NCBI GenBank assembly: GCA_009841235.1
Contig: VXMH01000033.1
Span: 1-64,000, forward strand
Length of the DNA stretch: 64,000 bases
Direction of reading: 5' to 3'
Origin: Caldilineaceae bacterium SB0661_bin_32
GTDB taxonomy: Bacteria; Chloroflexota; Anaerolineae; Caldilineales; Caldilineaceae
Positions 10,298 to 55,071 of this stretch are shown here, piece by piece. Each line of letters opens with the position of its first letter. Position 1 is the first letter of the stretch. Position numbers and translations under genes: made by a program. The notes beneath the pieces were generated by a model. That model did no database searches. It was not told the origin of the DNA and was given only the letters and a program-made list of their open reading frames with translations.

Positions 10298-10322
10298 GGT
10301 GGACTAAAGATTAGACTTCGAG

Positions 10323-11544: not shown

Positions 11545-11800
11545 ACCGGTCTCCTTATCACAAGTGCAGGGAATGACCTCATTTATACCGCGTCAATCAG
11601 CTCTGGTCAATGAAACAGGCAAAACGCGTTTTTTCGATAATCTTTTCGGCGTTTTTGACATGCACGGCCCAACGTCCTTTCCTTGCTCCTGCCCGGCCTG
11701 TTCAACTCTATCTTCTTCAAGAAGATTTTTGCAGAGGGTTGTCATGAGCGGCATCAAGGGGTAGACTGTCCCTCACCTAACCATTCATTGGAATCCCAAC
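11545..11800 (+). other. Divergent intergenic region
   Basis: 256 nt between the divergent DUF4058 gene (-) and the esterase gene (+). It must hold both promoters, but I see no convincing -35/-10 pair, repeat or RNA gene in it. A TTTTTGACA box at about 11655 has no matching -10 at the right distance. Confidence 0.4.
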
Positions 11801-17195: not shown

Positions 17196-17283
17196 GGACT
17201 CAGGTGGTGCGGCAGTTTTATGGAAGCACAGGCTAAGGTTGAGAAGGGCCTTACTACATATTCCGACGGGAGCATCCTGATTG

Positions 17284-32876: not shown

Positions 32877-33088
32877 CCCAGGCGACTTGCTCAAGTCCCG
32901 GCCGCGTTCTAATGTGTGACCGGCTTCTGTCGCGAAATTCCTCTTGCCTTCAGCAGGCTTCCCGCATGGCGTCCATTTCGCACGCTTGTGGTGGATAGGC
33001 AGGTGGGCCGCCGCTAACCTTGTTTCATTCCCGTTAGAGACAAAAGTGCAAAGGGAATGCAGTGCTTTCTTGAGTGGGAGGTAGGCGC

Positions 33089-34163: not shown

Positions 34164-34901
34164 ATGTTCCCGTACGATAGCTGCGATCTGACACAAGACC
34201 TTCGACGCCTAGGTGTCGAAGCGGGCGATATCCTTTTTGTTCACTCCTCCTTTAAGTCGCTCGGGCCGGTCGAGGGTGGGGCTGAAAGCGTGATCCAGGC
34301 CATGGAAGACGCCATCGGGCCGGAAGGGCTGTTGCTGATGCCCTCATTCAACCTGATAAAGTGGGAGTTGCGGCCTGAGACGTGGGATATCAACAGCACA
34401 CCTTCTACGGTCGGATGGATAACTGAGCGGTTCCGACAGCTGCCGGGCGTCTACCGTTCAGACCACTACTCTCATTCGGTGGCGGCTCGGGGAAGAGGGG
34501 CGAAAGCGTTTGTCGGAGGGCATCTTCGTGATGAGGGGTATGGTTCCCATTGGGACCGCAAACCGTGGGGGAAGACTTTCGGCCTGCATTCACCCATGTA
34601 CAGAGCGTATCAGGCCGGTGGAAAGCTGCTGATGCTGGGCGTGGACTACTACACTTCGACCTACGTCCATCTGGTCGAAGCGATGTACTGGCACACGTTG
34701 CGGGCCCAAAGCCGGGACACGGAGCGGGAGCCTGCATTCCCAGCATTGGACCGTGTCAGGTTGGGCGCTTTCTGGGATCGTTTCGGGGGCCCGCAACACG
34801 GACGCGTTGGAGACGCAGACTGCCGGCTGTTTGGGATCCGAGGCTACGTCGACGCACTTCTGGCCGAGGTGGAAAAGGATCCGCGGCCCTACTTGCGCTG
34901 A
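34164..34901 (+). CDS. AAC(3)-fold N-acetyltransferase
   Basis: A 245-residue acetyl-CoA-dependent enzyme of the Antibiotic_NAT type. Landmarks are VHSSFKSLGPVEGGAESVI (25-43), LLMPSFN and DHYSHSVAARG, where the His of SHS is part of the active site. The family includes aminoglycoside 3-N-acetyltransferases, but many members act on sugar amines or other metabolites and do not confer resistance. Given the sugar-related neighbours, an amino-sugar role is at least as likely as a resistance role. It is convergent with the operon that ends at 34962. Confidence 0.85.
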   Translation: MFPYDSCDLTQDLRRLGVEAGDILFVHSSFKSLGPVEGGAESVIQAMEDAIGPEGLLLMPSFNLIKWELRPETWDINSTPSTVGWITERFRQLPGVYRSDHYSHSVAARGRGAKAFVGGHLRDEGYGSHWDRKPWGKTFGLHSPMYRAYQAGGKLLMLGVDYYTSTYVHLVEAMYWHTLRAQSRDTEREPAFPALDRVRLGAFWDRFGGPQHGRVGDADCRLFGIRGYVDALLAEVEKDPRPYLR

Positions 34902-34961: not shown

Positions 34962-36050
34962 TCAATCAGCCGTATACTTTGGCAGTCTCGGGGTATGGTC
35001 ACGGACCATACGGGTCGTGCGCTTCTGCAGCGGCAGTTCGACGCGCGCGCCACCCAGGAGATGGGATTCGATGATGCCGAAGATGAGTTCGTTGCCGGCG
35101 CGGGCCGCGCGTACGCCGCCCCTGGGGGGTTGGCCGGTGTCGAGGGCATGGACAAGGTCCTGGACGGCCCGCAGCGTGGAACTGGTTGGGGGCGTCTGGG
35201 GAGCCTCCGCGATCCGGAGCTCGTTGCGCCCGCGCAGACCGACCGGCGCGGCTTTACGCACCTGCCAATCACTGCCGTCGCCGAAGGCGGTAATTGTGCC
35301 TTCGGAACAGATCGCTTCTGTTTCGGACGCGCGGGCGGTGAGAAGGACGTGGGCTTTTACCCCATTTTCAAACTGAATGGTCCCTTCCCCCTGCGGGTCG
35401 CCGGTCAGAACGTCTCCGTCGATCAGGCTGTCGCCTTCAGGAAGATGACCTTGCACCCATTCGGCCGGCGCGTCGTCGTTGAGCCTCAGAACCAGATCGA
35501 GAAAGTGGCTGCCTGTATTGAACAACGTGCCGACGTTATAGATGATAATGTGCTGCAGGTCGCCCAATTCTCCGCTGTCGATGATCTCCTTCATGCGGTC
35601 GTACTTGGTATCATAGCGCCGGTTGGTGCCGAGATTGAGTATGGCGCCGTTCCTCTCAACCGCCTCGACCATTGCATCGGCATCGGCCATTGAGGCGGCC
35701 ATTGCTTTTTCAGCATAGATTGCTTTGACGCCGCTGTCGGCGCAGGCGACGACGATCGCGGCGCGCGGCTCCGGCTGCGTGGCTACGCTGACGATGTCCA
35801 GGTCCTCTTTGGCGAGCATCTCGCGGTAGTCAGTGTACTGGCCAGCCGCGGGCACGCCGTGCAGTTTGCCGAACTCTGCCATGACGTCGGTACGCAGGTC
35901 GGCGCAGGCGACGAGGTCTGTGCGGTCGCAGGTTGTGTAGCCGGCGGCGTGTGAGTAGGGCAGCGCGATTCTGGCATAGCCGACCACTTCGTTGTCGATG
36001 AAGCCGCCCATGCGGCTGCAACCGATTACGGCGGCGCGGTAAGTTTTCAT
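34962..36050 (-). CDS. Gfo/Idh/MocA-family oxidoreductase
   Basis: A 362-residue NAD(P)-dependent dehydrogenase. The Rossmann motif is AAVIGCSRMGGF, and the strand equivalent to EKP reads AEKAMAAS, keeping the Lys. The DLVLRLNDD segment lies where the family's substrate-binding residues sit. ATG 36050 is chosen because AGGGGGAAC lies about 6 nt upstream on this strand; an upstream in-frame start would add 15 residues. It is the last of nine genes that run from 45057 to here. Its dissimilarity to the dehydrogenase at 2413 suggests a different substrate. Confidence 0.9.
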   Translation of the reverse strand: MKTYRAAVIGCSRMGGFIDNEVVGYARIALPYSHAAGYTTCDRTDLVACADLRTDVMAEFGKLHGVPAAGQYTDYREMLAKEDLDIVSVATQPEPRAAIVVACADSGVKAIYAEKAMAASMADADAMVEAVERNGAILNLGTNRRYDTKYDRMKEIIDSGELGDLQHIIIYNVGTLFNTGSHFLDLVLRLNDDAPAEWVQGHLPEGDSLIDGDVLTGDPQGEGTIQFENGVKAHVLLTARASETEAICSEGTITAFGDGSDWQVRKAAPVGLRGRNELRIAEAPQTPPTSSTLRAVQDLVHALDTGQPPRGGVRAARAGNELIFGIIESHLLGGARVELPLQKRTTRMVRDHTPRLPKYTAD

Positions 36051-36118
36051 TATTGTGTTCCCCCTGTGTGTTCCCGCTCGCGCAGGGTCTTGCATAGGAA
36101 TTCGGGAAATCCGCCCGG

Positions 36119-37030
36119 TCAGCCAAGCGCATTGATCCTGTCGCGCAGCTCCTGAGTCAGCCCCATTTCTTCGGCCTGGAAGGCCTGATCAACATGGGAC
36201 TTGCTGCGGCAGCCGATCAGGACCGAGGTGATTCCGGGTTGACCGATTACCCAGGCCAGCGCAAGCTGTACCATTGAGATGCCGGTATCAGCAGCCACTT
36301 CACGCAGGCCCTCCATGCGGCGCATGGAGGCGTCGTTTTCGTAGATATCCCAGTGGTCGGGCATGACGTCGAAGCGGGTCCCCTCGGGTGCTGTCCAGGT
36401 CTTGGTGTACTTGCCGGTGAGGAAGCCGGCGCCAAGCGGGCTGTATGAGATCACGCCGATGTTCTGGTCAGCACAGAATGGGAGGACTTCGGCCTCAATA
36501 TCACGGATGGCAACGTTGTAGTTTGGCTGAACAGATACCATGGGCGCCCAACCATTCACGTCGGCAATCCATAGCGCTTTACATAGCTGCCACGAGGCGA
36601 AATTGCTGCTTCCGACGTAGCGTATCTTGCCCTGCTCCACAAGCGTGTTGAGGGCATCCAGCGTTTCCTCGAAAGGTGTGCCGTCGTCGTAGGCATGGAG
36701 CTGGTATAGATCGATGACGTCGGTCTGCAGCCGGCGCAGGCTATCTTCGGCGAACTGCAGGACACGTTCCCGGCCCAATGGCGGCGCGATTTTTGTCGCC
36801 AGCACGACTTTCTGGCGGTTACTGCCGCGGGAGAGCCACTGGCCCAGTACCTTTTCGGAGCCGCCGGCGGAATAGACTTCGGCGGTGTCGATCAGGTTGA
36901 TATCCTTGTCCATGGCGTAGTCGAGAATCGAAAAGGACGTTTTGGCGTCGATTTCGCGGCCGAAGGTCACGCTGCCCAAGCCGATTGAACTGACGTTGAG
37001 TTCGGAGTTACCCAACTGGCGAAATTCCAT
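36119..37030 (-). CDS. Aldo/keto reductase
   Basis: A 303-residue (beta/alpha)8 NADPH-dependent reductase of the YajO/Tas type. The full tetrad is present: Asp48 in LIDTAEVY, Tyr53, Lys80 in VVLATK, and His in DLYQLHAYDDGTP. SLGAGFLTGKYT matches the family's cofactor loop. It sits 68 nt upstream of the Gfo/Idh gene in transcription order. This copy keeps the catalytic lysine that the pair at 21564/22615 has lost. Confidence 0.93.
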   Translation of the reverse strand: MEFRQLGNSELNVSSIGLGSVTFGREIDAKTSFSILDYAMDKDINLIDTAEVYSAGGSEKVLGQWLSRGSNRQKVVLATKIAPPLGRERVLQFAEDSLRRLQTDVIDLYQLHAYDDGTPFEETLDALNTLVEQGKIRYVGSSNFASWQLCKALWIADVNGWAPMVSVQPNYNVAIRDIEAEVLPFCADQNIGVISYSPLGAGFLTGKYTKTWTAPEGTRFDVMPDHWDIYENDASMRRMEGLREVAADTGISMVQLALAWVIGQPGITSVLIGCRSKSHVDQAFQAEEMGLTQELRDRINALG

Positions 37031-37151
37031 CTTCTAAACCTCCCTACATTCCTGAGTGGATACGTTCTGTCTCGGATTCGCTTGCTGCCGGTCCCGGACT
37101 GACGCGCTGGCCGCCCGAACTGTCTGCCATCAATCATGAAGCTTCCCGAGT

Positions 37152-38165
37152 TCAAATCTGTCGCATCCTTTTGGCTGCGGCCTCCAGGTCGGCTTGCCAG
37201 TAACTCGGATTGAGCAGCTCGGGATCGTCGATGCGCAGCTGGCGCAGTTCATGGAGCATGTCGGGCGAGAGCGTCGTGCTTGCCGCCTCCAGATTTTCTT
37301 CGAGCTCTGCCTCGGTGCGCATGCCGACGAGCACCGAGCCGATGCGCGGTTCGGCCAGTGCAAAGGCGATGGCCGCCTTCGCCGGCGTGAGGCCGCGGCC
37401 GGTTGCGTGCCGAGGAACTCTAACGGCGTCGGCAACCAGCTGGCGGAATCGCCTTGAGCGTGCTTTCAAGGGTTCAAGCCAGTCGGGCAGGTAGTCGGCG
37501 CGTTCGGTCAAGACCCCTTGCAGCAGGACCGACCGCACCATTACGCCAACTTGCCTCCTTCTGGCCGTAGGAAGGACTTTGTTCGCCAGGCGCTGGTCGA
37601 AGACCGAATAGGTGACCTGAATCGCGTCGAACAGTTCCAGATCAAGCGCGGCGAGGGGTAGATCCGGGCCGTAAAATGAGCCGCCGCGCCAGAGAGTCAT
37701 ACCGCTTGCGCGTGCTTCAGAGAAGACCTGGGCTACGAGCTCGGCCTGGTCCAGCAGATCGGCGTCGACATTGTGGATCTGCCAGATGTCAACGTAGTCG
37801 GTTTGCAGGGAACGGAGACTGTTCTCAAGTCCGGACAGCATGGCCCGGCGCAGGGCTTCGCCGCGCAACGTCTTTCCACCGGCTTGCACTGTCGCCTTTG
37901 TTGCCAGCACGACCCTCTTGCGTCGGCCGCGAAGGGCACGGCCGAGGACCGCTTCGCTGTTCCCATACGCCTGGGCCGTGTCAATGAAATTGATGCCGGC
38001 GTCCAGCGCCGCGCCGACCAGGCGTTCGGCGGCGGACGACGAAGGGCGGCCGTACTGGCCGGGGACGGGGATTCCGTAATCCATCCCCAGTTCGACTGTG
38101 CCCAAGGCGATTGGTGAAACGGAAAGACCAGTTTGTCCAAGTGTGCGATAGTGACTTCGGTTCAT
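37152..38165 (-). CDS. Aldo/keto reductase
   Basis: A 337-residue NADPH-dependent reductase with a complete tetrad: Asp62 in FIDTAQAYGNS, Tyr67, Lys90 in VVLATKATV and His in DIWQIHNVD. A longer loop after the first strand (GIPVPGQYGRPSS) distinguishes it from the AKR at 36119. It is less similar to that gene than a recent duplicate would be. It lies 121 nt upstream of the next AKR and 49 nt downstream of the ferritin-like gene. Confidence 0.92.
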   Translation of the reverse strand: MNRSHYRTLGQTGLSVSPIALGTVELGMDYGIPVPGQYGRPSSSAAERLVGAALDAGINFIDTAQAYGNSEAVLGRALRGRRKRVVLATKATVQAGGKTLRGEALRRAMLSGLENSLRSLQTDYVDIWQIHNVDADLLDQAELVAQVFSEARASGMTLWRGGSFYGPDLPLAALDLELFDAIQVTYSVFDQRLANKVLPTARRRQVGVMVRSVLLQGVLTERADYLPDWLEPLKARSRRFRQLVADAVRVPRHATGRGLTPAKAAIAFALAEPRIGSVLVGMRTEAELEENLEAASTTLSPDMLHELRQLRIDDPELLNPSYWQADLEAAAKRMRQI

Positions 38166-38214
38166 TGGCAGATGCGCGCGGCTCGAGGCCGGTGGGTGGT
38201 ACAGGTTCTGTTAG

Positions 38215-39423
38215 CTACTCTTCGGTCAAGGGTAGCTCGTGGATAGGTAGCGCGCCCGACATGTACTCCCGTTCCCACAGGGCTACGGTCTCCTTGACGA
38301 ATTCGTCCACCGGTGTGTCGATCCCATGTTGGGTCATCAGCTGCGGCAGCCATTTGTGGCCGAAGGCGACGTGCTGCCGTTCGTCGGCCATGTCGTAGCT
38401 GACGAACTGGGCGGAAAGACGGTCGCCGGTTTCGGCGTAGGCGGCCATCTGCTCGTGGCGGTGGGGGAAGGCGTGCGTCTCGTTGCCCATCGTCAGGAGA
38501 CAGTATTGGGTGGCGGCGTCGTACTGGCTGCGCCAGGTGTAGATGCGCGTGTTCTGGGGGACCTTGGTATAGTCGCGTCCGTGCTGGGCCAGCCACTCGA
38601 TGCCCAGCTTGCAGTGCCGGGTCTCGTCGTAGCAGTGGCGGGCGCTGTCGTAGGTGAAGGCCCAGGGCATGTCGGGTGACAGGTGGATGATGAGCGCGAC
38701 GGTTTCGGCGGCGAGCATCTCCTGGCTGTAGCTTTCGAAGTCCCGCAGACGCTGGGTTGCATGATCGACGTCCGTTATCCGTTTGCCGGCGTCGCGATTG
38801 ACCAGACTGAAGCGGCTGTCGCGGGCGGCGTCGCGGGGGCATTCGAAGGCCGTGCGGCATGCGGCCGGCGCCGGTCTTTCTTGCCGGTCTTCGCGGCCGG
38901 AGACTCCCCCGGCTGCGGCAAGCAGGTCGGCGATGTAGGTTTCCCATTCGTCTGGCGCATGGTCTGCCAGTGCCTCTTCTGCCCAGGTGAGTTGCAGCTC
39001 TTCATCAATCAGGATGTGTTTGAAGGCGTAGAGGGTCGGCGCGTCGGGATTGGCGAAGGTCTGATCGCAGTGCCAGCGGTAAGTTTCAACCAAGGCCGGT
39101 TTGATCACGCGAAAGAGGCCGGCCAGGAGGGCGGCTTCGTTGGGCGCATGAAGGGCTTCGGCCATCAGGTGTTCGAGCGCGTCGTCGCCTGGCGGGCGGA
39201 AGGCGGGCGTCTGGATCTCGCGCAGGCGCTGGTAGAGATGCTGAACGTGCTGGGCATCTTCCCAGAGCAGGCGGCCCATTGCCAGTTTCCAGTCCATGTT
39301 GGCGGTGCCGGGCAGCCAGGCGGCCAGTATGCGCAGGGTCTCGTATTCGATGAAGCGGTAGCGGTTTAGCAGTTGCTTGTTGTGAGCGAAGTCGATCTGC
39401 TCCGGCGGGGACAGTACCTGCAT
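38215..39423 (-). CDS. Ferritin-like di-metal protein, duplicated half-domains (DUF455-like)
   Basis: A 402-residue helical protein. The first half carries YETLRIL (E28) and WEDAQH (E55/H59). The second half carries AAETVALII (E239), YDETRH (E266/H269) and ADERQH (E347/H350), which are the ExxH motifs of a di-iron or di-manganese four-helix site. A charged linker of about 35 residues (175-210) joins the two. DUF455 proteins are described as ferritin-like but have no settled function. It is followed by an amidohydrolase only 11 nt upstream in the transcript, so the two are probably coupled. Confidence 0.75.
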   Translation of the reverse strand: MQVLSPPEQIDFAHNKQLLNRYRFIEYETLRILAAWLPGTANMDWKLAMGRLLWEDAQHVQHLYQRLREIQTPAFRPPGDDALEHLMAEALHAPNEAALLAGLFRVIKPALVETYRWHCDQTFANPDAPTLYAFKHILIDEELQLTWAEEALADHAPDEWETYIADLLAAAGGVSGREDRQERPAPAACRTAFECPRDAARDSRFSLVNRDAGKRITDVDHATQRLRDFESYSQEMLAAETVALIIHLSPDMPWAFTYDSARHCYDETRHCKLGIEWLAQHGRDYTKVPQNTRIYTWRSQYDAATQYCLLTMGNETHAFPHRHEQMAAYAETGDRLSAQFVSYDMADERQHVAFGHKWLPQLMTQHGIDTPVDEFVKETVALWEREYMSGALPIHELPLTEE

Positions 39424-39434
39424 TATCCTCCTCC

Positions 39435-40493
39435 TTACTCGATTTCCAGGAGCGCGGCGGCGTTGCCGTAAAAGATGTCCTCGACCTGGCGCTCGCTCAG
39501 CTTCAGCCGGTCGCAGGCGAGGCGGAGGCTGCGCAGCGATTCGAGGCCGATGAGGACAGGCTGCAAGGAGATGTGCTTCTCGTCCAGGTCCATTTCATCG
39601 GCGTAGAGCCAGTGGAAGGAGTCGCCGATGGCAACGCAGCGGCCGCGCGTGTGGCTGACGTGGAAGTCGGTGCCGTACATCAGCTTCTCATGGCCCATCG
39701 TCTCTACAATTGCCTCGAACGCGCCGGCCTCGGTCACCGCCGACGTGTCGAACCAGACGTTGTCCAGGCCGCGCAGGCTTTCGATGCCCTCGATGGTATG
39801 CCAGGGGTTGAAGCCGCGGGCGGCGTGGGCGAGGATCAGCCGCATGTTGGGATAGGACTCGCAGTAGCGCCGGATGGTGACCTGGTTGACCGGGTCGGCG
39901 AGGGCGCGATCGCGTACCATGTGCAGCGTGATGGTCAGCCCCAGCGTGTTGGCCGCGGCGACGTGCTCCTCGGGCAGATAGGCCTCAATGGGCGCGGTCC
40001 AGGTCGGATCGGCGGCGGTGTAGGCGCCGGCGCCGGATTCGGGCGTGCCCAGGAGCGGATTCAGCGGGGCCATGGTGTGGTAGCATTTCAGGCCGGTCAT
40101 GCCCAGGCGGCGGACTTCGTCCAGGATGGTCTCGGCGTCCATATCGGGCGAGATGATCAGCTGGCCGCGCGATTTGGCTGCCAGGGGCGAATCGCCTTGT
40201 ATTTCTGCGGCGATGAATTCATTGTTGGCCTGGCGGTCGCCGAGAAAGACGAGTCCAAAGAAGAGGCCGCCCACGACGCGTCCTCCCGGATGCAGCCACT
40301 CCGAGTACCGTTCAAACTCGGCGAGGCCCAGGCGGGGCGGCGTCGTTGCCAGCCCGGCGGGTGGGCCACCGTCCGGATAGTGCTCGTGGCAAAAGAGATG
40401 CGCGTGGGCATCGATGATGCGGTCAGGCAGGAAGGGGAGGATCTCCCTATGGAGAAATTGCCGATCTTCCTCTTTGAACTCGTGCGAAAACAT
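39435..40493 (-). CDS. Amidohydrolase-family (amidohydro_2-type) TIM-barrel protein
   Basis: A 352-residue metal-dependent hydrolase or decarboxylase. The metal motif is IDAHAHLF (H30 and H32). Later landmarks are GLKCYHTMAPLNPLLG, a His in ILAHAARGFNPWH, and MYGTDFHVSH, where the family's final Asp sits. Members hydrolyse lactones or decarboxylate aromatic or sugar acids. It lies 11 nt from the ferritin-like gene, so both are likely to be translated from one message. The substrate is unknown. Confidence 0.82.
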   Translation of the reverse strand: MFSHEFKEEDRQFLHREILPFLPDRIIDAHAHLFCHEHYPDGGPPAGLATTPPRLGLAEFERYSEWLHPGGRVVGGLFFGLVFLGDRQANNEFIAAEIQGDSPLAAKSRGQLIISPDMDAETILDEVRRLGMTGLKCYHTMAPLNPLLGTPESGAGAYTAADPTWTAPIEAYLPEEHVAAANTLGLTITLHMVRDRALADPVNQVTIRRYCESYPNMRLILAHAARGFNPWHTIEGIESLRGLDNVWFDTSAVTEAGAFEAIVETMGHEKLMYGTDFHVSHTRGRCVAIGDSFHWLYADEMDLDEKHISLQPVLIGLESLRSLRLACDRLKLSERQVEDIFYGNAAALLEIE

Positions 40494-40548
40494 GGCAGGT
40501 ATCCTGTGGCCTATTTCCTGTACAGGTCATCCCACTGGAGGCATGAAC

Positions 40549-41901
40549 TTATCGGACCTGGCGGCGGAACGGCTCCTTCTTGAGGTTGACGGTGAGCAGG
40601 TCGTCGAGATTGCCGTGCTCCAAACCGGCGCGAACGACCTGGAGGGCCTCAGCTGCCGCTTCACCGGTCAGGCGGATATCGTCATCGGTGTGGGCAAGCG
40701 TAGCCTTGAAGCTCATATAGGAATGCACCCCGCGTTTGGCCATCTCCTGGATGAAAAGAGTAGAGACCTTGCGGGGATCGACGTCGTCAGGCGTATTGAG
40801 GGTCACGGTCGGACCGGTATGCAGGCCGGTGCAGGCGCCGTCCAACCCCGATTCCTCTATAGCTTTATTCAGTGCAGTGCGCAGGTTCTCGCCAATCTCC
40901 TTGAAACGCCGGGGGGACTCGCGGCGCTTCAGCTCGCGAATCGTTGCGAGCGAGGCGGCCAGCCCGATGTTGTCGCTCCAGTACGAGCTGGAGATGAACA
41001 TGTGCCTGGCCGGTCCCATTACCTCTCGCGAGCCGACCACTGCGCCCATGGGGTAGCCATTGGACATCGACTTGGCGACTACTGTCATGTCGGGTGTTAC
41101 GCCGACGGCCTCCTGCACGCCGCCGACGGCGATGCGCCAGCCGCAGGAGACTTCGTCAAAGATGAGGACAACGTCATGGTCGGCAGCCAGCTGCTTTACC
41201 GCTTCCAGGTAACCAGGGGGCGGCAGCTCCGAGCGGGCCGGCTCCATCATGATGGCGGCGACCTCGCCGGCATGTTCTTCAAGCAGCGCGGCCAGCATCT
41301 CCAGGTCGCCGTAGATAAAGGGGACGACGGTGCCTTCGAGGGCCTTGGGCACGCCGATCGGCTCGATGCCGGCGAAGGGGTATTCCCCGCTCTCGGGATC
41401 GACGCCGAAGTTGGCGGCCTGGTACCAGTCGTGCCAGCCATGATAGCCGCAGAAAAGGATCTTGTCCTTGCCGGTGGTGCCGCGGGCGATGCGCACGGCC
41501 ATGGCGCAGGCATCGCCGCCGCCCTTGCAGTAGCGCACCATTTGCGAACTGGGAATCGTGTCGTTGAGCTCCTCGGCCAGCTCGATCTCGAGCGGGCTGT
41601 TGGCGGAGAAGAGGCTGCTGCGGTCGATCTGCTCCTTTACGGCCGCGTCAACGACTTCATCGGCGTGCCCCAGGATGATGGCGCCGACCGCGTTCATCCA
41701 GTCGATGTACTCATTTTCGTCGACGTCGATGAAGCGGGAGCCCTTGGCGCGCTGGGCGTATATGGGGCTGGCGCCGTGCGCGAACTGGTCGGCGCGGCGG
41801 CTGATCAGCTGCGTCCAGCCGGGGATCAGTTCGCCGGCCTGCTCGTAGAGGTCAAGCGATCGGGAGACGTCATGTTGGGCCGCATTTGGGAACGAGGTCA
41901 T
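40549..41901 (-). CDS. Class-III aminotransferase (glutamate-1-semialdehyde-aminomutase-like)
   Basis: A 450-residue PLP enzyme. The PLP Asp is in IFDEV (D249), the Schiff-base Lys in VVAKSMSNGYP (K277), and YHGWHDW (153-159) again marks the GSA-type group. The cofactor loop is CKGGGDACAMAVRIAR, in place of the common SGTEA version. It is not closely similar to the aminotransferase at 15987 outside these motifs. Its place in a sugar operon points to amino-sugar or aminocyclitol metabolism and not to haem synthesis. Confidence 0.88.
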   Translation of the reverse strand: MTSFPNAAQHDVSRSLDLYEQAGELIPGWTQLISRRADQFAHGASPIYAQRAKGSRFIDVDENEYIDWMNAVGAIILGHADEVVDAAVKEQIDRSSLFSANSPLEIELAEELNDTIPSSQMVRYCKGGGDACAMAVRIARGTTGKDKILFCGYHGWHDWYQAANFGVDPESGEYPFAGIEPIGVPKALEGTVVPFIYGDLEMLAALLEEHAGEVAAIMMEPARSELPPPGYLEAVKQLAADHDVVLIFDEVSCGWRIAVGGVQEAVGVTPDMTVVAKSMSNGYPMGAVVGSREVMGPARHMFISSSYWSDNIGLAASLATIRELKRRESPRRFKEIGENLRTALNKAIEESGLDGACTGLHTGPTVTLNTPDDVDPRKVSTLFIQEMAKRGVHSYMSFKATLAHTDDDIRLTGEAAAEALQVVRAGLEHGNLDDLLTVNLKKEPFRRQVR

Positions 41902-41957
41902 TTTGGCCTCCGCTTTTCATGTGAGTAGATGCTGTACCGGCGACTCGAGGACAGGTC

Positions 41958-42989
41958 TTACTCCTGCCAGTTGAAGATTACGCCCAGCATGTTTTTCTCG
42001 CGATGGTAGGCCATCTCGTAGGCTTCAACCATCTCGCTGTAGTGAAAACGGTGCGTGATCAGTCGGCTCGGTTCCAGTAGCCCATCGGCCATGAGGGAAA
42101 CGACGTGGTCGGCGATGTTGTCCCAGGCGTAACGGTCGGCTGTGTTGTAGGGGTCCGACCCGCCGTCGGGATAGAGATATCCTGCCCGCTGGGAAACGGC
42201 GATCAACGATGTTCCTTTGTTATAGAAAAGCTCCATGGCGAGCGGGTTGAAGTCCAGCGGCGGTTCGCCGCGGCCGAGCAGACTGACGACGGAGACGCGG
42301 CCGCCGGGACGGACGATCTCCATTGAGGTGCGGAAGGCGGGCCAAGGATTGGCTGTGAGAATGACGAGATCGATACCCTGGCCGCGGGTGAATTCGTCGA
42401 GTTTCTCGTCAAGCTGCGGATCATTGTAGAGGAAGTTGGCGTGCGCGCCCATTCGCTCCGACATTTCGATGCGGACGGGGCTGTTGGCGATGCCGACGAC
42501 GCGACCGCCGAAGAGCGGGCCGAGAGCGATGGCGCCCAGGCCCAGGACGCCTACTCCGACTACTGCCACATTTTCACCGGGCCGGAACTGGGCCTTGTGG
42601 TAGCAGTGGGCGCTGAGAGCATAGAGATGGGCATAGACGGCATCCTCGTCGGCGACGCCTTCGGGTATGGCGACCAGGCTCTCCGACTCGGACATTATGT
42701 ATTCGGACTGGTGGGGGGCGCGGGTGACGACGCGATCGCCGACTTTCACGCGGGTGACCTTACTGCCGGCGGCCTGCACGATGCCCAAGTTGCTGTCGCC
42801 GACCCAGCGCGGGTATCCGGGGGCGCCGGGGACCTGGTCTGCGCCTTCGTAGTTGCCGCGGTCGGTACCGATTTTGAGGGCGGAGATACGGGTCTTCACC
42901 CAGATCTCGTCGTCGGCGAGCTGGCTGGCGTCCAGATCCTGCTCTTCGATACGCAGATCACGCGGGCCATGCAGGATAGCTATTTTCAT
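41958..42989 (-). CDS. Medium-chain dehydrogenase/reductase without the catalytic zinc ligands
   Basis: A 343-residue MDR-fold protein with the Rossmann motif VVGVGVLGLGAIAL near 140-155. The catalytic-zinc site is broken: IGTD (40-43) replaces CGTD, and VGDSNLG (63-69) replaces the GHE motif. The structural-zinc four-cysteine loop is also absent. Such MDRs use other residues for catalysis, as in quinone reductase-like or threonine-dehydrogenase-unlike members. It lies 48 nt from the aldolase gene and 56 nt from the aminotransferase gene. Confidence 0.85.
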   Translation of the reverse strand: MKIAILHGPRDLRIEEQDLDASQLADDEIWVKTRISALKIGTDRGNYEGADQVPGAPGYPRWVGDSNLGIVQAAGSKVTRVKVGDRVVTRAPHQSEYIMSESESLVAIPEGVADEDAVYAHLYALSAHCYHKAQFRPGENVAVVGVGVLGLGAIALGPLFGGRVVGIANSPVRIEMSERMGAHANFLYNDPQLDEKLDEFTRGQGIDLVILTANPWPAFRTSMEIVRPGGRVSVVSLLGRGEPPLDFNPLAMELFYNKGTSLIAVSQRAGYLYPDGGSDPYNTADRYAWDNIADHVVSLMADGLLEPSRLITHRFHYSEMVEAYEMAYHREKNMLGVIFNWQE

Positions 42990-43037
42990 GCTCGGTTGCC
43001 TTTCACGAATGTCATCGGGAGCGCTTGGAGGGATAGC

Positions 43038-43817
43038 TCACGCGCCGGGCACGCCGTCCAAGTCTTCACTACAATCTTTCAGCACGTTCATCAGGCTGAA
43101 GTCCCCGCCCCAGGGGACCATCTGCGCGCCTTGATCGCGGAAACGCTTGATTTCGTCAACAGAGGCGGCGGTGATGCCCCAGATCTTGCCATGCTTTGCG
43201 GCCGCGGCGGCGACGGTATCAATGGCTTTTTCCATTGACATTTGACCATCACCCTGCGTTGCGATGCGGAGCGAAAGATCGGCGGGACCGATGAACAGGC
43301 CGTCGATACCATCGATGGAGGCGATCTCTTCGGCGTTGGCCACTGCCTGGAGGGTTTCGACCTGTGTGATGAGGAAGGTCTCCCGGTTGGCGTCGGCGTT
43401 GTAGTTGCTCTGAGGGTCCCAAGCCTCGATACCAAAATCAGCGTCAAGGCCGGCTCCGTCCATGCCTCGGTTGCCCAAGGGGGGAAACCTGACGGCCTGG
43501 ACCACGTCGGATGCTGTCTGAGGGTCGGAGATCAGGGGCATGAGGAAGCCGCTGGCGCCGTCCTCCAGGTACCGGTACAGTTTGGTTCTCTCCAGGGTGG
43601 GGGGCCGGACCATGCAGTCGATGTCGTTATGATAGCACATCATGATGATGGCCTGTACTTCGCGGGCGTCCATTGGGCGGTGTTCAAGGTCAAACCAGAT
43701 GCCGTCAAACTTGTAGTGGGCAGCGTAACGGATGTAGAAGGGCAGGTAGTGGCCGAGGCCGCAGACGCGGGCGAAGCCGTCATTGCGGAACTTCTGAAGC
43801 ATCTTGCTCTTGCGCAT
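43038..43817 (-). CDS. HpcH/HpaI-type aldolase
   Basis: A 259-residue class II (metal-dependent) aldolase related to 2-keto-3-deoxy acid aldolases. Landmarks are WFDLEHRPMD with the metal-site region, GASGFLMPLI, RFPPLGNRG and GLFIGPADLS. ATG 43817 follows AAAGGAATCGAC, so the start is clear; upstream in-frame codons would add a tail with no family match. Such enzymes split 2-keto-3-deoxy sugar acids into pyruvate and an aldehyde, which would fit a sugar-acid or ulosonate pathway with the neighbouring dehydrogenases. Confidence 0.88.
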   Translation of the reverse strand: MRKSKMLQKFRNDGFARVCGLGHYLPFYIRYAAHYKFDGIWFDLEHRPMDAREVQAIIMMCYHNDIDCMVRPPTLERTKLYRYLEDGASGFLMPLISDPQTASDVVQAVRFPPLGNRGMDGAGLDADFGIEAWDPQSNYNADANRETFLITQVETLQAVANAEEIASIDGIDGLFIGPADLSLRIATQGDGQMSMEKAIDTVAAAAAKHGKIWGITAASVDEIKRFRDQGAQMVPWGGDFSLMNVLKDCSEDLDGVPGA

Positions 43818-43884
43818 GTCGATTCCTTTGTGTGACAGCATGAATTGCGCCGCCGGATACGACGCAGATTGAAAGCAGGCCGGG

Positions 43885-45057
43885 TCAGACGAGACCGGGG
43901 TCGATTCTGGTCCAGTGTATGTCCATAGCTTCGTCAGAACCTGCATAATATACGACGAGAACGGTCCCGTCGGCCAGAGTCTCGGCATAGGGAAGGCCGA
44001 AGGTCCACAGGCTCATCTCGCTGAGCAGTTCGCTCGTGCTGTCGGTCTGGTCGCCGGGGTCCTGTTCCTGGCTGTAGATGACGACCTCGGATGCCGGATC
44101 AAAGGGGGCGTCGATCGCGGGGGCAAGCCGGGCGCGGATCGAGCGGCTGCCGAACCTGTCCACGTAGGGCAGGAGGACGCGGCCGTCGGCCAGCATGGCC
44201 GGGCGCGCGGCCTGGTCGGCGAAACCGAGGTCTTCGGCGTCGGTCCAGGTGCGGCCGCTGTCGGTGCTGATGCGGCGGTGGATGTTCAGGTAGCGGGCCG
44301 TTTCTGTGTCGTAGGTCCAGGAGAAGGTAGCGACGCGTCCGTCGGGGGCGACGCCGCAGCGCAGGTCCCAGTTGAAGATACGGCCGCCGCGGTCCTCGCC
44401 GGCTACGACCGGTTCTGCCCAGCCCGGGTCTACGGCCAGCTTGCCTGCGGGGCCCGGGCTTGAGGACGACGCTTGGTAATCATGGCGGTGCATGAAGACG
44501 ACCTTCTGCATCCAGGGTGAGGCGTCTTCGTAGTGTTTGTTTGTCTCGATGCTCAACGCCAGCGAGCCGTCGGCAAGCTGGAGGACGGGCGCGGTGAGGC
44601 TGGGGGGTCCGATCTCTTCAGGCATGGGAACGAGCCGCCAGGGAGACCAGCTTTCGCCGCCGTCGTTCGAGTCGGCCAGGAGGACCTGCATGGGCAGGCA
44701 GCCTTCGGTCTCCTCATTGAAGAGGCCGCCGCCGGGCCAGGTCGTGCGGTCGATCCACATGGTCGCGCCCAGCAGATGACCGGGAGAGAGCTCAGTCAGA
44801 TAGCAGACACGCAGGGAGCCGTGGAGGCCGTCCAGGGTCGGGTTTCCGAAGGGCTTCCAGGGTTCGCTCCAGGTGCGACCGCCGTCGGTCGAGCGGACGA
44901 ATTCGACGGTTTCGTCGTCGGCATCCTTAGTCGTTCCGGTACGGTAGGTCGCCAAAAAGATACCGCTGTCGAGGGAGATGATGGTGGGAAAGGTGAGGAT
45001 AGCGCGGGATGTACCGGGCTGGCCGCGGCTGAGAGTACCGCTGTCGGTGATCTGCAT
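43885..45057 (-). CDS. Exo-alpha-sialidase-like BNR-repeat protein
   Basis: A 390-residue six-bladed propeller protein with three Asp boxes: STDGGRTW (56-63), SNDGGESW (130-137) and STDSGRTW (264-271). It has no clear signal peptide, so it may act inside the cell. It is the first gene of the minus-strand operon. True sialidases need an Arg triad, Tyr/Glu and Asp; I cannot assign them all, so it may act on other sugars, including sulfated or ulosonic ones. A related gene at 51712-52286 is broken. Confidence 0.8.
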   Translation of the reverse strand: MQITDSGTLSRGQPGTSRAILTFPTIISLDSGIFLATYRTGTTKDADDETVEFVRSTDGGRTWSEPWKPFGNPTLDGLHGSLRVCYLTELSPGHLLGATMWIDRTTWPGGGLFNEETEGCLPMQVLLADSNDGGESWSPWRLVPMPEEIGPPSLTAPVLQLADGSLALSIETNKHYEDASPWMQKVVFMHRHDYQASSSSPGPAGKLAVDPGWAEPVVAGEDRGGRIFNWDLRCGVAPDGRVATFSWTYDTETARYLNIHRRISTDSGRTWTDAEDLGFADQAARPAMLADGRVLLPYVDRFGSRSIRARLAPAIDAPFDPASEVVIYSQEQDPGDQTDSTSELLSEMSLWTFGLPYAETLADGTVLVVYYAGSDEAMDIHWTRIDPGLV

Positions 45058-45527
45058 TATGTATTTCGCTCTTGGTTCGTTTGCGGATGGAACAGCGGCG
45101 TTTCCGCGCCCACTGGAAATCGTGGTGGATCGAATAGGGGTATCCTACACCAGTTTTGCGCGCAATGCACAACGCCAATTACCTTCTTGAGGGACAGCCG
45201 GCTTTCCCTCCTCAGGCGAAATCTGCTTTTTTCACGACTCGGTCTTTATGTTGGTCAGTTGGCACATCTGTTTTGGTTTTACCTAAGTGATCGCGCGCGT
45301 CGTCGAAATTGGCGTTTTGACATGGGACTAATGTGATGCTATAGTGCCGCCCAATCACATCGCCAAGCCACTTGTCCCAGACCGTTTTGCCATTACTTAA
45401 CACAGTACATAGCCCCTGTTACGCATTGGGTTTGGAGTCGGCCTGTACCCCACTGGTACAGTTCGTTAGCATTTGAAGCAATCCTACCTTTTTCTCATAA
45501 ACCAGCACATTCAAGGAGGAGACGTTG
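45058..45527 (+). other. Divergent intergenic region with a promoter
   Basis: 470 nt between the minus-strand operon and the plus-strand peptide importer. It contains the strong promoter at 45317-45345 and a moderate inverted repeat GAGGGA/TCCCTC at 45189-45210 enclosing AGCCGGCT. I see no coding sequence. AAGGAGGA (45513-45520) is the ribosome-binding site of the importer's first gene. The promoter of the minus-strand operon should lie in the first 100 nt but is not clear. Confidence 0.55.
45317..45345 (+). promoter_or_regulatory. Strong sigma-70-type promoter of the Dpp operon
   Basis: TTGACA (45317-45322), a 17-nt spacer and TATAGT (45340-45345). The -35 is perfect, the spacing is ideal and the -10 matches 5 of 6. 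The expected transcription start is near 45352, leaving a leader of about 175 nt before the binding-protein gene. This is the best promoter seen in the window. Confidence 0.8.
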
Positions 45528-47210
45528 ATGTTGTCGAAACACAAGATCCCCAAGACGTGGATCATTCTGATGGCGCTGATGGCGATGGTCCTTGCCGTCT
45601 CGGCTTGCGCAGCGCCGGCAGCGGCGCCGGCGGCCGATTCAGGAGAGATGGCCGCTGACAGCGATGACGAGATGATGGAGGAGATGCACTTCCGCGCGAC
45701 GATACCGTTCTTCGCGCAGGACTGGTCGCCGTTGCGAGGCGGCGGCTGGAATATGCACTACCTGGCATTCTGGAACGCCGGGCCGATGTATATTGACGAA
45801 CATGGCGAACTGCATGCGTATGTCTTTAACGAATGGACCCCGAACGAGGACATGTCGCAGTGGACCTTCAAGATCGACCCGGACGCGGTCTTTTCGGATG
45901 GCAGCTCAATAACTGCTCAGGACGTGGTGGCGACCTGGAATCTGATCGCGCATCCCGCTACCACGCACCAGCGCGTCACTTTGTTCATGACCGGTGTGGT
46001 TGGCTTTGAGGACGTGTTCAACGGCGAGGCGATGACGATGCCCGGTGTGGTCGCCCTGGACGACAGCACGGTGCAGGTGACGTTGGAAGGGCCTGACCCG
46101 CTGTTCCACAAGAAACTGGCCACCAACCTGATTGGCCCGGTCAAGGCTTCGGTTGCGATTGGCGAGGACGGCTTCGAGATTGCCGAATGGTGGCACCCGA
46201 AAAACAACCCCGTGACCAGCGGACCCTTCATGCCCGACGAGATGGACCTGAACAAGGGTGTGGTCACCTTCGTGAAGAATCCGAACTTCTGGGTGGCGGA
46301 ACCGATGTTGGACAGATTTACGGTTACGTCGATTGAAGACAGGACGATCGTGACGACAATGCTGGCCAATGGGGAACTGGACCAGGGTTGGCCGCCCAAT
46401 GACGCCGCATCACAGGCGCTGCTGGGAGCGGACTACTTTGAGTGCGGCCAGGCACCCGGCATCGGTGGATTCTTCTTGAATCCCACGATAGAACCGACCA
46501 GCGACCTCAACTTCCGCAAGGCGTTGGTCCTGGCGGTAGACAGGGAGCAGATCTTCAATCTTTCCAGCCCTGACGGCAGTGGCTGGGTACCGACAGGTGA
46601 GCCGCTGCGAGCATTGCCCGGTGCGGATCCCAACTTTGTACCGCATCCTTTCGATCCTGAGGCTGCCAAGGAAGCGTTGGCGGCGTCCGCATATGCTGAT
46701 GCGGCCGACGTACCCAAGATGATCATGGCCGGCGTGAGCAGCCCCGGGACGGAGGTTCTGGCGCAGTACATGGCGGAGCAGTGGCGCCAGCTGTTCGGCA
46801 TCACGGCGATCGAGATGAGCCCGCAGTTTGACAGCTGGGAAGGCCCCGGCGCGCCGGCGCTTTTCCGTGACGGCGCCGGCGTGCGTGTTCCCGATGCGGC
46901 GTTGATGCTGCTCGGTTCGCTGCACTCCTCTTCCAACCTGGCCCGCAACATCATGGGCGGCTACGCCGATCCTGAGGTGGATGCGCTGATCGAAGAGGCA
47001 GTCACCCTGGGAGCGGATGATCCGAACCGCATCGCGCTGTCACAGCAGGCGCAGCAGGTATTCCACGACCAGTATATGGTCATTCCGATCGGCACAGGTT
47101 GCGGCGGCTCGGTCAAGGGTGGCGCAATGCCTTGGGTACATGGCACGCGGCGCAACGCCGACGCCCAGTTCGTCGAGCCTTGGAAGATCTACATCGAGCA
47201 TATGGAGTAA
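45528..47210 (+). CDS. Dpp/Opp-type peptide (or oligosaccharide) substrate-binding lipoprotein
   Basis: A 560-residue family-5 binding protein. The leader is MLSKHK... with the lipobox AVSAC and then an Ala/Pro linker. The family core shows LAFWNAGPMYIDEHGELHAYVFNEW, WTFKIDPDAVFSDGSSITAQDVV and LNFRKALVLAVDREQIF. ATG 45528 is taken; TTG 45525 is directly before it and AAGGAGGA is 7 nt upstream. Family 5 proteins bind peptides, nickel or oligosaccharides; the ligand is not clear. Two stem-loops follow before the permease genes. Confidence 0.92.
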   Translation: MLSKHKIPKTWIILMALMAMVLAVSACAAPAAAPAADSGEMAADSDDEMMEEMHFRATIPFFAQDWSPLRGGGWNMHYLAFWNAGPMYIDEHGELHAYVFNEWTPNEDMSQWTFKIDPDAVFSDGSSITAQDVVATWNLIAHPATTHQRVTLFMTGVVGFEDVFNGEAMTMPGVVALDDSTVQVTLEGPDPLFHKKLATNLIGPVKASVAIGEDGFEIAEWWHPKNNPVTSGPFMPDEMDLNKGVVTFVKNPNFWVAEPMLDRFTVTSIEDRTIVTTMLANGELDQGWPPNDAASQALLGADYFECGQAPGIGGFFLNPTIEPTSDLNFRKALVLAVDREQIFNLSSPDGSGWVPTGEPLRALPGADPNFVPHPFDPEAAKEALAASAYADAADVPKMIMAGVSSPGTEVLAQYMAEQWRQLFGITAIEMSPQFDSWEGPGAPALFRDGAGVRVPDAALMLLGSLHSSSNLARNIMGGYADPEVDALIEEAVTLGADDPNRIALSQQAQQVFHDQYMVIPIGTGCGGSVKGGAMPWVHGTRRNADAQFVEPWKIYIEHME

Positions 47211-47211
47211 C

Positions 47212-47280
47212 TTTCAGCGAAGGCTGAAATCGTAGTATTGCAAGGGCAAGGGCGTCAAGCAGCCTATGGCGCCTTTGCCC
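47212..47280 (+). other. Two successive intercistronic stem-loops
   Basis: TTTCAGC (47212-47218), a 4-nt loop and GCTGAAA (47223-47229) form a perfect 7-bp hairpin starting 1 nt after the stop. A second hairpin pairs GGGCAAGGGCG (47244-47254) with CGCCTTTGCCC (47270-47280) at 10 of 11 positions. Neither has a T-run. They sit between the binding protein and the first permease gene (47388). Confidence 0.7.
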
Positions 47281-47387
47281 GCGTATTCCGGTCAAGCCCG
47301 CACCATTTCCCTTGAGGGCAGTTTCGCCTCACACCGGCACCAGGAATCCCGTTATAGTATCCCAGCTCCGGCATTGAAGGATTAGCA

Positions 47388-48353
47388 ATGGGTCAATACG
47401 TCCTGCGCCGCATTCTTTATTGGATCCCGGCACTTCTGCTGCTGGCGCTGTCCGTGTATGCGTTGGCCTTTTTCGGCGCGGGGGATCCGATCAAGTTGAT
47501 GTTCCTGCGGGAAGAGGGTGATGTGACCTATGACGCGCAGCGGTTGGATGCCATCCGCCGGGAGAAGGGCTTGGACCGCCCGTTCCTTGTGCAGTTCGGG
47601 GAGTACACCTGGCATCTTGTGCAGGGCGACCTGGGCATGTCGGTAATTTCGGGGCGTTCCGTCAATGACATGGTCGGAGCGACTGCGCCCGTCTCGTTTC
47701 AGATTGGGATCGCAACCGTGATCCTGGTCGCGATCCTTGGCATTCCATTAGGCATATTAGCCGGCCTCAACCACAACAATTGGATAGACAACTCGATACT
47801 TGGCTCCGCGCTCTTCATCAGCGGCGTACCCAGCTATGTAGTGGGGCCGATGCTGATGGTCTTTTTGGTATTGGGGTTGGGCATCATGAAGACGACGCCT
47901 TACGGGTGGGAAGGGCTGTTCAGCAAGAAGGCGATCCTGCCCATGTTCGTCATGGTCTTTGGCTCGATCGCGATCATCATTCGCCAGACCCGGTCAGGCG
48001 TGCTCGAAGTATTGTCGGAGGACTATGTGCGCACGGCGCGAGCCAAGGGCGTGCCGGAGTTCATGGTGATCGTCCGTCATATGTTGAGACCGGTTCTGAC
48101 GCCGGTCGTAACTGTTTTGGGGCAGATGTTGATCGGAATCGTAAACGGCGCAATCATCGTAGAGAAGATTTTCGGTATCCCGGGCTTGGGCCGTTTGACT
48201 ATCGACTTCACTTACGGGGTAGACTATCCCGTCATCGTGGCGATCACGTTGATCGGCGCCTTCCTGGTTATGGCGTTGAACTTGCTGGTGGACATCACTT
48301 ATCCTTTGCTGGATCCGCGGGCGGCCCAGGCCATGACCGGCGTAGAGGATTAG
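47388..48353 (+). CDS. Dpp/Opp-type permease (DppB-like)
   Basis: A 321-residue inner-membrane permease with six hydrophobic segments. N-terminal YVLRRILYWIPALLLLALSV is typical of DppB. EDYVRTARAKGVPEF is the EAA-type loop that meets the ATPases, and GIPGLGRLTIDFTYGVDYPVI the last-segment signature. It lies 177 nt after the binding-protein gene, across two stem-loops, and 104 nt before its partner permease. Confidence 0.93.
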   Translation: MGQYVLRRILYWIPALLLLALSVYALAFFGAGDPIKLMFLREEGDVTYDAQRLDAIRREKGLDRPFLVQFGEYTWHLVQGDLGMSVISGRSVNDMVGATAPVSFQIGIATVILVAILGIPLGILAGLNHNNWIDNSILGSALFISGVPSYVVGPMLMVFLVLGLGIMKTTPYGWEGLFSKKAILPMFVMVFGSIAIIIRQTRSGVLEVLSEDYVRTARAKGVPEFMVIVRHMLRPVLTPVVTVLGQMLIGIVNGAIIVEKIFGIPGLGRLTIDFTYGVDYPVIVAITLIGAFLVMALNLLVDITYPLLDPRAAQAMTGVED

Positions 48354-48457
48354 CGTTCACAGGGCAACATGTAGCAGTCAGGATTCTTAACCTGGACGAG
48401 TTCGCACTGATGCATTTTGGGGCAGTACAGGTACAGAAAACGAGCAAGCGGTGAGGA

Positions 48458-49429
48458 ATGACGACTCAGGAAATCACGGCAACCGGGGATATCGAAATAG
48501 CTGAGGCCAGCCGCACCAATCTGTGGCGGGATGCGGTGGCGCGATTGGCGGCGAACCGTCTGGCGGTCGTGGCCATTTTGCCAATTGTACTCCTGTTTTT
48601 CATCGCAGCTTTCGGCCCATACCTGACCCCTTATGATTTTCTGGCGCAGGATTTTACGGCACGGCTGGCTTCACCGTCAAGCGAACACTGGCTGGGTACC
48701 GACGAGTTGGGACGCGATGTTTTCAGCCGTATCCTCTACGGCGCGCGAACGGCTGTCTCAGTGGGCCTTGTGTCGACTGCGATCAGCTTGATCGTCGGGC
48801 TGGTGATGGGGTCGCTGGCAGGTTACCTGGGGGGACGGGTGGACATGTTGGTCGTCTGGCTGACCGACATGACGCGTTCGATGCCGGCGCTGCTGCTGGC
48901 AATCGTGATCAACCTGACGCTTAAGGTGCCGCTCGAAGCCTGGATGGAGCAGATGTATCTTGCGTCCAAGAACACTTTCTTCCGCCAGACGATGTGGGTG
49001 GACCTGGTGCTGGTCTTCGGCGCGCTGGCGCTGATTCAGTGGCCCGGCTACGCCCGCCTCATCCGAGGCCAGATCCTGTCTATACGCAGCCGCAACTACG
49101 TGCTGGCCGCGCGCGCCCTGGGAATGCCGACGGGGCGTATCCTCACTCGCTACGTAATCCCTAACGCGATGGGACCATTGATCGTTGCGGTCAGCGCCGG
49201 AATGGGGGGCGCCATGGTTCTCGAATCTGCATTCAGTTTCCTGGGCGTCGGTGTGCAGCTGCCTATCCCCAGTTGGGGGAAGATGATCAGCGACGGTCTG
49301 CGAATGTGGCAGACGCATCCTCACCTGCTGGTCGGTCCGGCGGTTATGATGGCGGTGATCACAGTCTCATTTGCCTGGCTGGGCGACGGCCTGAACGATG
49401 CGCTCAATCCCCGCCAGTGGGGTGGATAA
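48458..49429 (+). CDS. Dpp/Opp-type permease (DppC-like)
   Basis: A 323-residue permease with the DppC features: SEHWLGTDELGRDVFSRILYG, then the EAA-type RSRNYVLAARALGMPTG and SFLGVGVQLPIPSWGKM. The extra 25-residue segment EAWMEQMYLASKNTFFRQ in the middle is longer than in many homologues. Together with the gene at 47388 it forms the channel. The start follows GCGGTGAGGA. Confidence 0.92.
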   Translation: MTTQEITATGDIEIAEASRTNLWRDAVARLAANRLAVVAILPIVLLFFIAAFGPYLTPYDFLAQDFTARLASPSSEHWLGTDELGRDVFSRILYGARTAVSVGLVSTAISLIVGLVMGSLAGYLGGRVDMLVVWLTDMTRSMPALLLAIVINLTLKVPLEAWMEQMYLASKNTFFRQTMWVDLVLVFGALALIQWPGYARLIRGQILSIRSRNYVLAARALGMPTGRILTRYVIPNAMGPLIVAVSAGMGGAMVLESAFSFLGVGVQLPIPSWGKMISDGLRMWQTHPHLLVGPAVMMAVITVSFAWLGDGLNDALNPRQWGG

Positions 49430-49491
49430 CTTCACCGGTTGGAGGCCTGCACGGCCCCTGCCAGTTGTGTAACGGCCTCCGGCTACAGTAG

Positions 49492-50532: not shown

Positions 50533-50580
50533 GGGAATGCCATCTTCGGGCTGTTCAACACGTGACCGAAAGTCCTTGCC

Positions 50581-52286: not shown

Positions 52287-52317
52287 TAGATCACACTTGG
52301 TTATAGGGAGGAAGAAG

Positions 52318-53388: not shown

Positions 53389-53465
53389 GGATCTCCTGGT
53401 CAGGGCCAATTGCCGGCAGAATTACCACACTTGAATCGACAGGAAACTGTCAGGAAGCTTGCTAT

Positions 53466-55058: not shown

Positions 55059-55071
55059 GGGAGGAGCAGGC

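Follow-up and report, generated by a model that had tools for sequence, protein, structure and literature searches.

The window analysed here is a 64,000-nt stretch of DNA (positions 1 to 64,000 of contig VXMH01000033.1, forward strand) from Caldilineaceae bacterium SB0661_bin_32 (Chloroflexota; assembly GCA_009841235.1), part of one contig of a 5.2 Mb genome. Between 34,962 and 45,057, its list of open reading frames (ORFs) contains nine genes, all on the minus strand, numbered here g1 to g9 from the upstream end. We put at about 0.5 the probability that they are a single regulated operon for the catabolism of a small hydroxylated compound with an amine group, taken up through an importer encoded divergently upstream. 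The nine genes are:

43885..45057, minus strand: g1, propeller (Pfam BNR_2; AlphaFold2 (AF2) model with a predicted local distance difference test score (pLDDT) of 82; VIA Z 34.8 to 5hx0)
43038..43817, minus strand: g2, HpaI-type class II aldolase (HpcH_HpaI, PF03328, E 1.4e-31; start revised)
41958..42989, minus strand: g3, zinc-less medium-chain dehydrogenase (MDR; ADH_N and ADH_zinc_N, PF00107)
40549..41901, minus strand: g4, class III aminotransferase of the glutamate-1-semialdehyde type, not HemL (Aminotran_3, PF00202)
39435..40493, minus strand: g5, amidohydrolase (Amidohydro_2, PF04909)
38215..39423, minus strand: g6, ferritin-like protein (DUF455, PF04305)
37152..38165, minus strand: g7, aldo-keto reductase (AKR) 1 (Aldo_ket_red, PF00248)
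36119..37030, minus strand: g8, AKR 2 (Aldo_ket_red, PF00248)
34962..36050, minus strand: g9, Gfo/Idh/MocA dehydrogenase (GFO_IDH_MocA, PF01408; start revised)

As listed, the g2 ORF reaches 43988 and overlaps g1 by 104 nt; conservation among homologues sets in at Met58, so that the true start is probably 43817. Similarly, conservation of g9 sets in near Met16, and its start is probably 36050 and not the listed 36095. With these two revisions the intergenic gaps from g1 to g9 are 67, 48, 56, 55, 11, 49, 121, and 68 nt, in agreement with a preliminary description of the locus as nine co-oriented minus-strand genes with gaps of 11 to 121 nt. Both flanking genes are on the plus strand. Separate promoters inside the set had been named as grounds for rejecting a common operon; a pattern scan of the nine genes gave no excess over shuffled sequence of internal promoter-like sites (2 found vs. 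2.4 expected) or of terminator-like sites (10 vs. 8.4). The N-termini of the nine enzymes have no signal-peptide-like character.

The arrangement is strongly conserved within the genus. A contig search with the amidohydrolase (g5) gave 28 loci, all of which were compared: 15 from Caldilineaceae of the same genus (L024-L038), five from other Chloroflexota (L039-L043), and eight from other phyla (L044-L051). The identical nine-gene order is found in 14 of the 15 same-genus loci, the last (L027) ending at a contig edge after six genes. One more same-genus locus outside this series, L076, also keeps all nine, so that the conserved synteny proposed earlier as a check is found in 15 of 16 further loci of the genus. 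All nine genes are under purifying selection (dN/dS 0.045-0.142 in two comparisons, with L035 and L031). Orthologues of the DUF455 gene are present in 17/17 genomes of the genus, 2/8 of other genera of the family, and 0/16 of the remaining genomes (E 1e-30), although the 17 are mostly the same metagenome-assembled genomes as L024-L038 and so are not an independent sample. One of the 15, L032 (MPML), is bin5 from the sponge Aplysina aerophoba (PMC5649159).

A single conserved stretch was found when the otherwise unalignable DNA upstream of g1 was compared among the genus loci. This and the neighboring features are:

45139..45171, minus strand: operator- or promoter-like block TGTGCA-N10-AACTGGTGTAGGATACC, 33 nt long and 82 nt upstream of g1 (upstream alignment)
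45317..45345, plus strand: putative sigma-70-type promoter of the divergent importer (11/12 consensus bases; similar bases in L029, L032, and L033)
45525..51573, plus strand: Opp/Dpp-type ATP-binding cassette (ABC) importer, with an SBP_bac_5 binding protein, two permeases, and two ATPases (Pfam)
34164..34901, plus strand: AAC(3)-type N-acetyltransferase, convergent with the operon (PF02522)

The window, L076, and 14 of the 15 loci L024-L038 have an exact copy of the 13-nt core of the block, GGTGTAGGATACC, and the other (L034) has it with one change, for a total of 17 loci. Even with 3 mismatches allowed, the core has a single site in the window (0 expected by chance), upstream of g1 and nowhere else; in the genome as a whole there is one exact site, and the next best has 2 mismatches. 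Because this core is an imperfect palindrome lying over a TAGGAT hexamer, the block may be an operator sitting on a promoter. A structured RNA leader was also considered, but a search of 45000-45600 against Rfam found nothing at E values of 1 or below. A wider regulon was rejected, there being just the one exact genomic site; a reversed control pattern gave 1 match, making the weaker sites uninterpretable.

The importer, of the SBP_bac_5/OppC type (binding-protein gene at 45525-47210), stands divergent from the operon in the window; of 10 other genus loci with sufficient upstream DNA, 7 show the same arrangement (L029-L033, L036, and L038), or 8/11 in all. Downstream of it (52297-55821) are genes for a luciferase-like monooxygenase, a thiamine pyrophosphate (TPP) enzyme, and another member of the HpaI family. 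In L048, a 58% homologue of this monooxygenase is found 9 kb away from the amidohydrolase homologue. At the other end, the AAC(3)-type gene is found in 14/14 testable loci of L024-L038 and was not found in L076. Beyond it in the window (31926-34039) are two tandem PhyH dioxygenase genes by Pfam. One or both are at that place in 11 of the 15 loci; L035 lacks them, L034 has just a 25% match, and the L027 and L032 stretches end early, with no PhyH there. By eye, another PhyH-type dioxygenase-like ORF (17281-18201) lies elsewhere in the window beside an aminotransferase-like ORF (15987-17195). In L034 and L035, homologues of the operon aminotransferase (34-35%) are also found downstream of the nine genes.

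Outside the genus, L070, from another genus of the same family, has retained eight of the nine families (59-76% identity), but in a changed order. One direction has HpaI, AKR1, MDR, amidohydrolase, aminotransferase, a DAO-type FAD oxidase, propeller, and DUF455; the opposite direction has AKR2, a different Gfo/Idh, and a GntR-like regulator (GntR assigned by eye). Neutral synteny would not be expected to keep content while changing order, and this points to a functional link. Together with the conserved order and the single operator-like box, it makes the nine genes, as judged from their sequences, a well-supported functional unit.

Smaller pieces of the set recur more widely. L071 keeps the propeller (61%), amidohydrolase (65%), and DUF455 (72%), with a weak Gfo/Idh match (32%). 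Homologues of the aminotransferase and the zinc-less MDR are adjacent in L094 (66 and 63%) and in L097 (57 and 53%), in the latter beside an Opp/Dpp-type transporter. In L045 (Spirochaetia), 8840-12610 contains co-oriented Gfo/Idh (54%), amidohydrolase (47%), AKR, and AAC(3)-type genes. Clusters of relatives also contain peptide and amino-acid genes: an M19 dipeptidase (L043, L077), MlrC/M81 (L039, L071), DAO-type oxidases (L042, L043, L070), a threonine-dehydratase-like PALP protein (L043, L071), and BhcC-like genes (L043, L101). Assignments in L039 and L042 and those of second copies were made by eye or from their similarity to a relative that had been scanned. A g4 homologue occurs in 11 genomes; its context was read in the window's own genome, in G240, and in four or five others (G362, G117, G033, G098, and G252), leaving out G077, G294, G308, and G157. 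L099 was left out of the gene survey.

The propeller was described at first as sialidase-like. For the fold, this is correct: the AF2 model is a six-bladed propeller with Asp boxes that matches a protein of unknown function (5hx0) and, with a VIA Z of about 33, sialidases (for Neu2, Z 33.6 and root-mean-square deviation 3.0 over 326 residues). It does not extend to the catalytic residues, the arginine triad and catalytic Glu (R68, E260, and R276 of the M. viridifaciens enzyme). In a HMMER alignment, which did not place the third Arg and the Tyr of the sialidase site, T22 of g1 falls next to the RIP arginine, while Q282 and V299 take the positions of the catalytic Glu and of the second Arg; all three are invariant in 23/23 g1 sequences. 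On these substitutions g1 is not a canonical GH33 sialidase, and sialic-acid catabolism was rejected for it; since they replace the catalytic Arg, Glu, and Arg invariantly, g1 is unlikely to release sialic acid and is better regarded as a putative cytosolic propeller of GH33 fold.

What accompanies the propeller is an aldolase. All 11 g1-bearing loci outside the genus have an aldolase-family gene within the stretch examined, of differing type: HpaI in L042, L070, L100, and L102; dihydrodipicolinate synthase (DHDPS) superfamily in L071, L077, and L078; RraA in L041 and L103 (in the latter, the g1 and RraA genes overlap as called); and BhcC-like in L043 and L101. The DHDPS-type proteins of L039, L071, L077, and L078 are 50-66% identical to one another, and the HpaI-bearing cluster of L070 has, directly after DUF455, a 63-residue remnant of such an aldolase (L070:14758-14946, minus strand). 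Because unrelated aldolase families fill the same slot, the route probably includes aldol chemistry, which gives indirect support to the aldol cleavage step imagined at the outset.

Of the remaining enzymes, g2, g4, g5, g7, g8, and g9 have in every aligned sequence the residues that their families lead one to expect. The g2 aldolase, whose nearest solved structure is 7v8t, combines PF03328 with H103, R128, E211, and D237 (long-ORF numbering) in 16/16 sequences. In g3, I40 and G64-D65-S66 stand in place of the zinc-ligand Cys and GHE (19/19), and it is indeed the zinc-less MDR it had been called. As a class III aminotransferase, g4 has PF00202 (148 bits) and the Schiff-base lysine K277 in 24/24; a HemL role in haem biosynthesis was rejected (229.4 bits vs. 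a cut-off of 527.3). The amidohydrolase g5 has its HxH, K, H, H, D set (H30, H32, K136, H191, H223, D276) in 33/33; a profile search gave weak matches, at best E 0.0017 (metal-dependent hydrolases without annotation) and 0.098 for ACMSD, so that no sub-family is assigned. Both AKRs have the catalytic tetrad in 17/17 (D62, Y67, K90, and H131 in g7; D48, Y53, K80, and H112 in g8), and g9 has E129-K130 in 19/19.

The DUF455 protein g6 (53.6 bits vs. a gathering cut-off of 34.3) carries in its C-terminal half an E, ExxH, E, ExxH pattern (E235, E240, E267, H270, E315, E348, and H351, in 23/23), nearly invariant in a wider sequence set; its N-terminal half has a degenerate version of the pattern. 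From this sequence pattern we infer a putative diiron-type metal site. A structure model from a shallow alignment (pLDDT 36) was unusable, and phmmer found no PDB relative of g5 or g6. In a limited search of open-licence literature, no paper joined "DUF455" with "ferritin-like", and the passage of PMC4520260 on DUF455 gives no function for it. Elsewhere in the genome, a second DUF455 paralogue adjoins a co-directional HpaI aldolase gene (C26, L074:7683-9883), and a third is directly followed on the same strand by a complete Opp/Dpp-type ABC importer (C102, L072:2569-10555).

On the observed gene content and order, purifying selection, intact catalytic residues, upstream box, and swaps in the aldolase slot, we infer a joint route, including the direction and order of every reaction, the substrate class, and entry through the importer. 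The substrate would enter by the divergent Opp/Dpp-type importer; the Gfo/Idh enzyme, zinc-less MDR, and AKRs would oxidize or reduce its hydroxyl and carbonyl groups, and the class III aminotransferase would remove or shift the amine, a step proposed before and made plausible by K277 and by the DAO-type flavoenzymes of relatives. The amidohydrolase might open a ring, lactone, or amide, and the DUF455 protein might carry out an O2-dependent step. The HpaI aldolase would then cleave the resulting 4-hydroxy-2-oxo acid to pyruvate and an aldehyde, which an AKR could reduce.

Several observations count against such an operon. It has no dehydratase or kinase, leaving a standard sugar-acid route incomplete. 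The importer is absent upstream in L034, L035, and L076, and the GntR regulator of L070, considered as regulator of the operon in the genus, gave no hits at E 1e-20 when this genome and 15 others of the genus were searched. The g4 homologue occurs without any of the other eight genes in L095 and L096. Finally, aldolase genes are common in these genomes, which makes any single co-occurrence weak: by counts covering HpaI and DHDPS, this genome has 15 and 8 matches (23 in all, for a chance of about 9% per 20 kb), and G362 has 31 such genes in 2.1 Mb.

A more specific version of the catabolic route may be sketched tentatively, although it is on the whole doubtful: an undescribed core route of this Caldilineaceae genus for an amine-bearing polyhydroxy compound from the sponge or its diet, in which the non-sialidase propeller is a standing partner of pyruvate-type aldolases, kept while the aldolase module is swapped, and DUF455 performs the O2-dependent step.

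Among the alternatives, one is strict amino-sugar or aminocyclitol catabolism: deamination of an amino sugar or a scyllo-inosamine-like ring, oxidation by Gfo/Idh and MDR, ring opening by the amidohydrolase, and aldol cleavage. The best models for g9 and g3 are inositol 2-dehydrogenase and scyllo-inosose 3-dehydrogenase, although far below the equivalog cut-offs, both scores being under a quarter of them (78.6 vs. 450 and 69.2 vs. 355). The AAC(3)-type neighbor, and the Spirochaetia set of Gfo, amidohydrolase, AKR, and AAC(3), would fit, as would the wealth of carbohydrate-uptake and uronic-acid genes reported for sponge Caldilineae (PMC6306507). The propeller without sialidase catalytic residues, the lack of a kinase, isomerase, or dehydratase in the set, and the peptide and amino-acid enzymes added in relatives all argue in the other direction, and we regard this alternative as unlikely.

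A second possibility, to which we give the same low likelihood, is that the compound is an unusual hydroxy-amino acid, dipeptide, or opine-like molecule, imported by the Opp/Dpp-type transporter and catabolized. Both the importer type and the M19, MlrC/M81, DAO-type, PALP, and BhcC-like genes of relatives would suit this, but the nine-gene operon itself holds none of those peptide and amino-acid genes. Moreover, Opp/Dpp-type importers transport sugars and metals as well, and it is in sugar routes that enzymes of the Gfo/Idh and AKR families are more often met. Since relatives add dipeptidase, MlrC, DAO, dehydratase-like, and BhcC-like genes, a hydroxy-amino-acid or peptide-like substrate seems as likely as an amino sugar. 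Of the initial proposal of an operon for an amino sugar or acid sugar, the single functional unit is well supported by gene order, L070, and the box; given the missing sialidase residues and these added genes, the proposed substrate class is one option among others.

Improbable, in our view, is a third reading, in which the aminotransferase, dehydrogenases, and a diiron oxygenase make or tailor a small bioactive amine and the AAC(3)-type gene, which lies convergent to the operon at its end wherever testable in L024-L038, serves self-protection. In its favor, g4 matches the model of GntE, a guanitoxin transaminase (232/525 bits), and an aminotransferase with a dehydrogenase recalls azasugar clusters (PMC8382821). 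However, the set includes no carrier protein, glycosyltransferase, phosphatase, or exporter, the divergent transporter is an importer, the start of the azasugar aminotransferase consensus is not in g4, and the genes are retained across the whole genus. Least probable is that there is no common pathway and this is neutral synteny of unrelated enzymes in a paralogue-rich genus: the families are abundant in the genome (HpaI in particular) and distant relatives hold pieces only, but the content of L070 is kept though scrambled, a box persists in otherwise unalignable DNA, purifying selection acts, and pieces recur in distant loci.

The catabolic operon favored here arranges known enzyme families in a new way and includes an unusual propeller and an uncharacterized DUF455 protein; it is not a new kind of system. 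No model was found describing the nine-gene set, nor any paper in a limited search of open-licence literature, and nothing there contradicts the initial remark that the set matches no known pathway. The Chloroflexota of sponges are abundant and difficult to grow in culture, and most of what is said of their diet is guesswork from annotations; an operon kept throughout a genus, with intact enzymes, an importer, and a single conserved operator-like box, offers a handle, as the ligand of the binding protein would name the substrate. Counts of "GH33 sialidase" in sponge Caldilineae (PMC6306507) may include propellers without sialidase catalytic residues. DUF455, which had no sequence relative in the PDB, gains a definable context.

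Each of the known systems compared shares part of the set. With the HpaI/GarL pyruvate aldolase pathways it shares the active-site residues of g2, which matches TIGR02311 (HpaI) at 121.6 bits and GarL at 105, although far below the equivalog cut-offs (368.8 and 406.8), and no 2-dehydro-3-deoxy-sugar-acid dehydratase adjoins. GH33 sialidases have the six-bladed fold and Asp boxes of g1, but not its Thr, Gln, and Val at the catalytic positions, and g1 has no signal-peptide-like start. The azasugar cluster (GabT1, phosphatase, GutB1) likewise puts a class III-type aminotransferase beside an MDR, as in g4 and g3; it differs in its phosphatase, in the zinc ligands that g3 lacks, and in the SGNxFR consensus, given in PMC8382821 and not found in g4. 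The levoglucosan route LgdA-LgdB1-LgdB2-LgdC, as described in PMC7676230, also uses Gfo/Idh oxidoreductases, in an oxidize-eliminate-hydrate-reduce scheme; the operon lacks its sugar-phosphate-isomerase-like LgdB gene and has an aminotransferase and aldolase in addition. Finally, neither BhcB nor BhcC of the beta-hydroxyaspartate cycle is in the window operon, and scores in L043, the sole locus scanned, are below the cut-offs (210/690 and 173/550), but BhcC-like genes do lie next to or near the g1 homologues of L043 and L101, joined in L043 by a PALP dehydratase.

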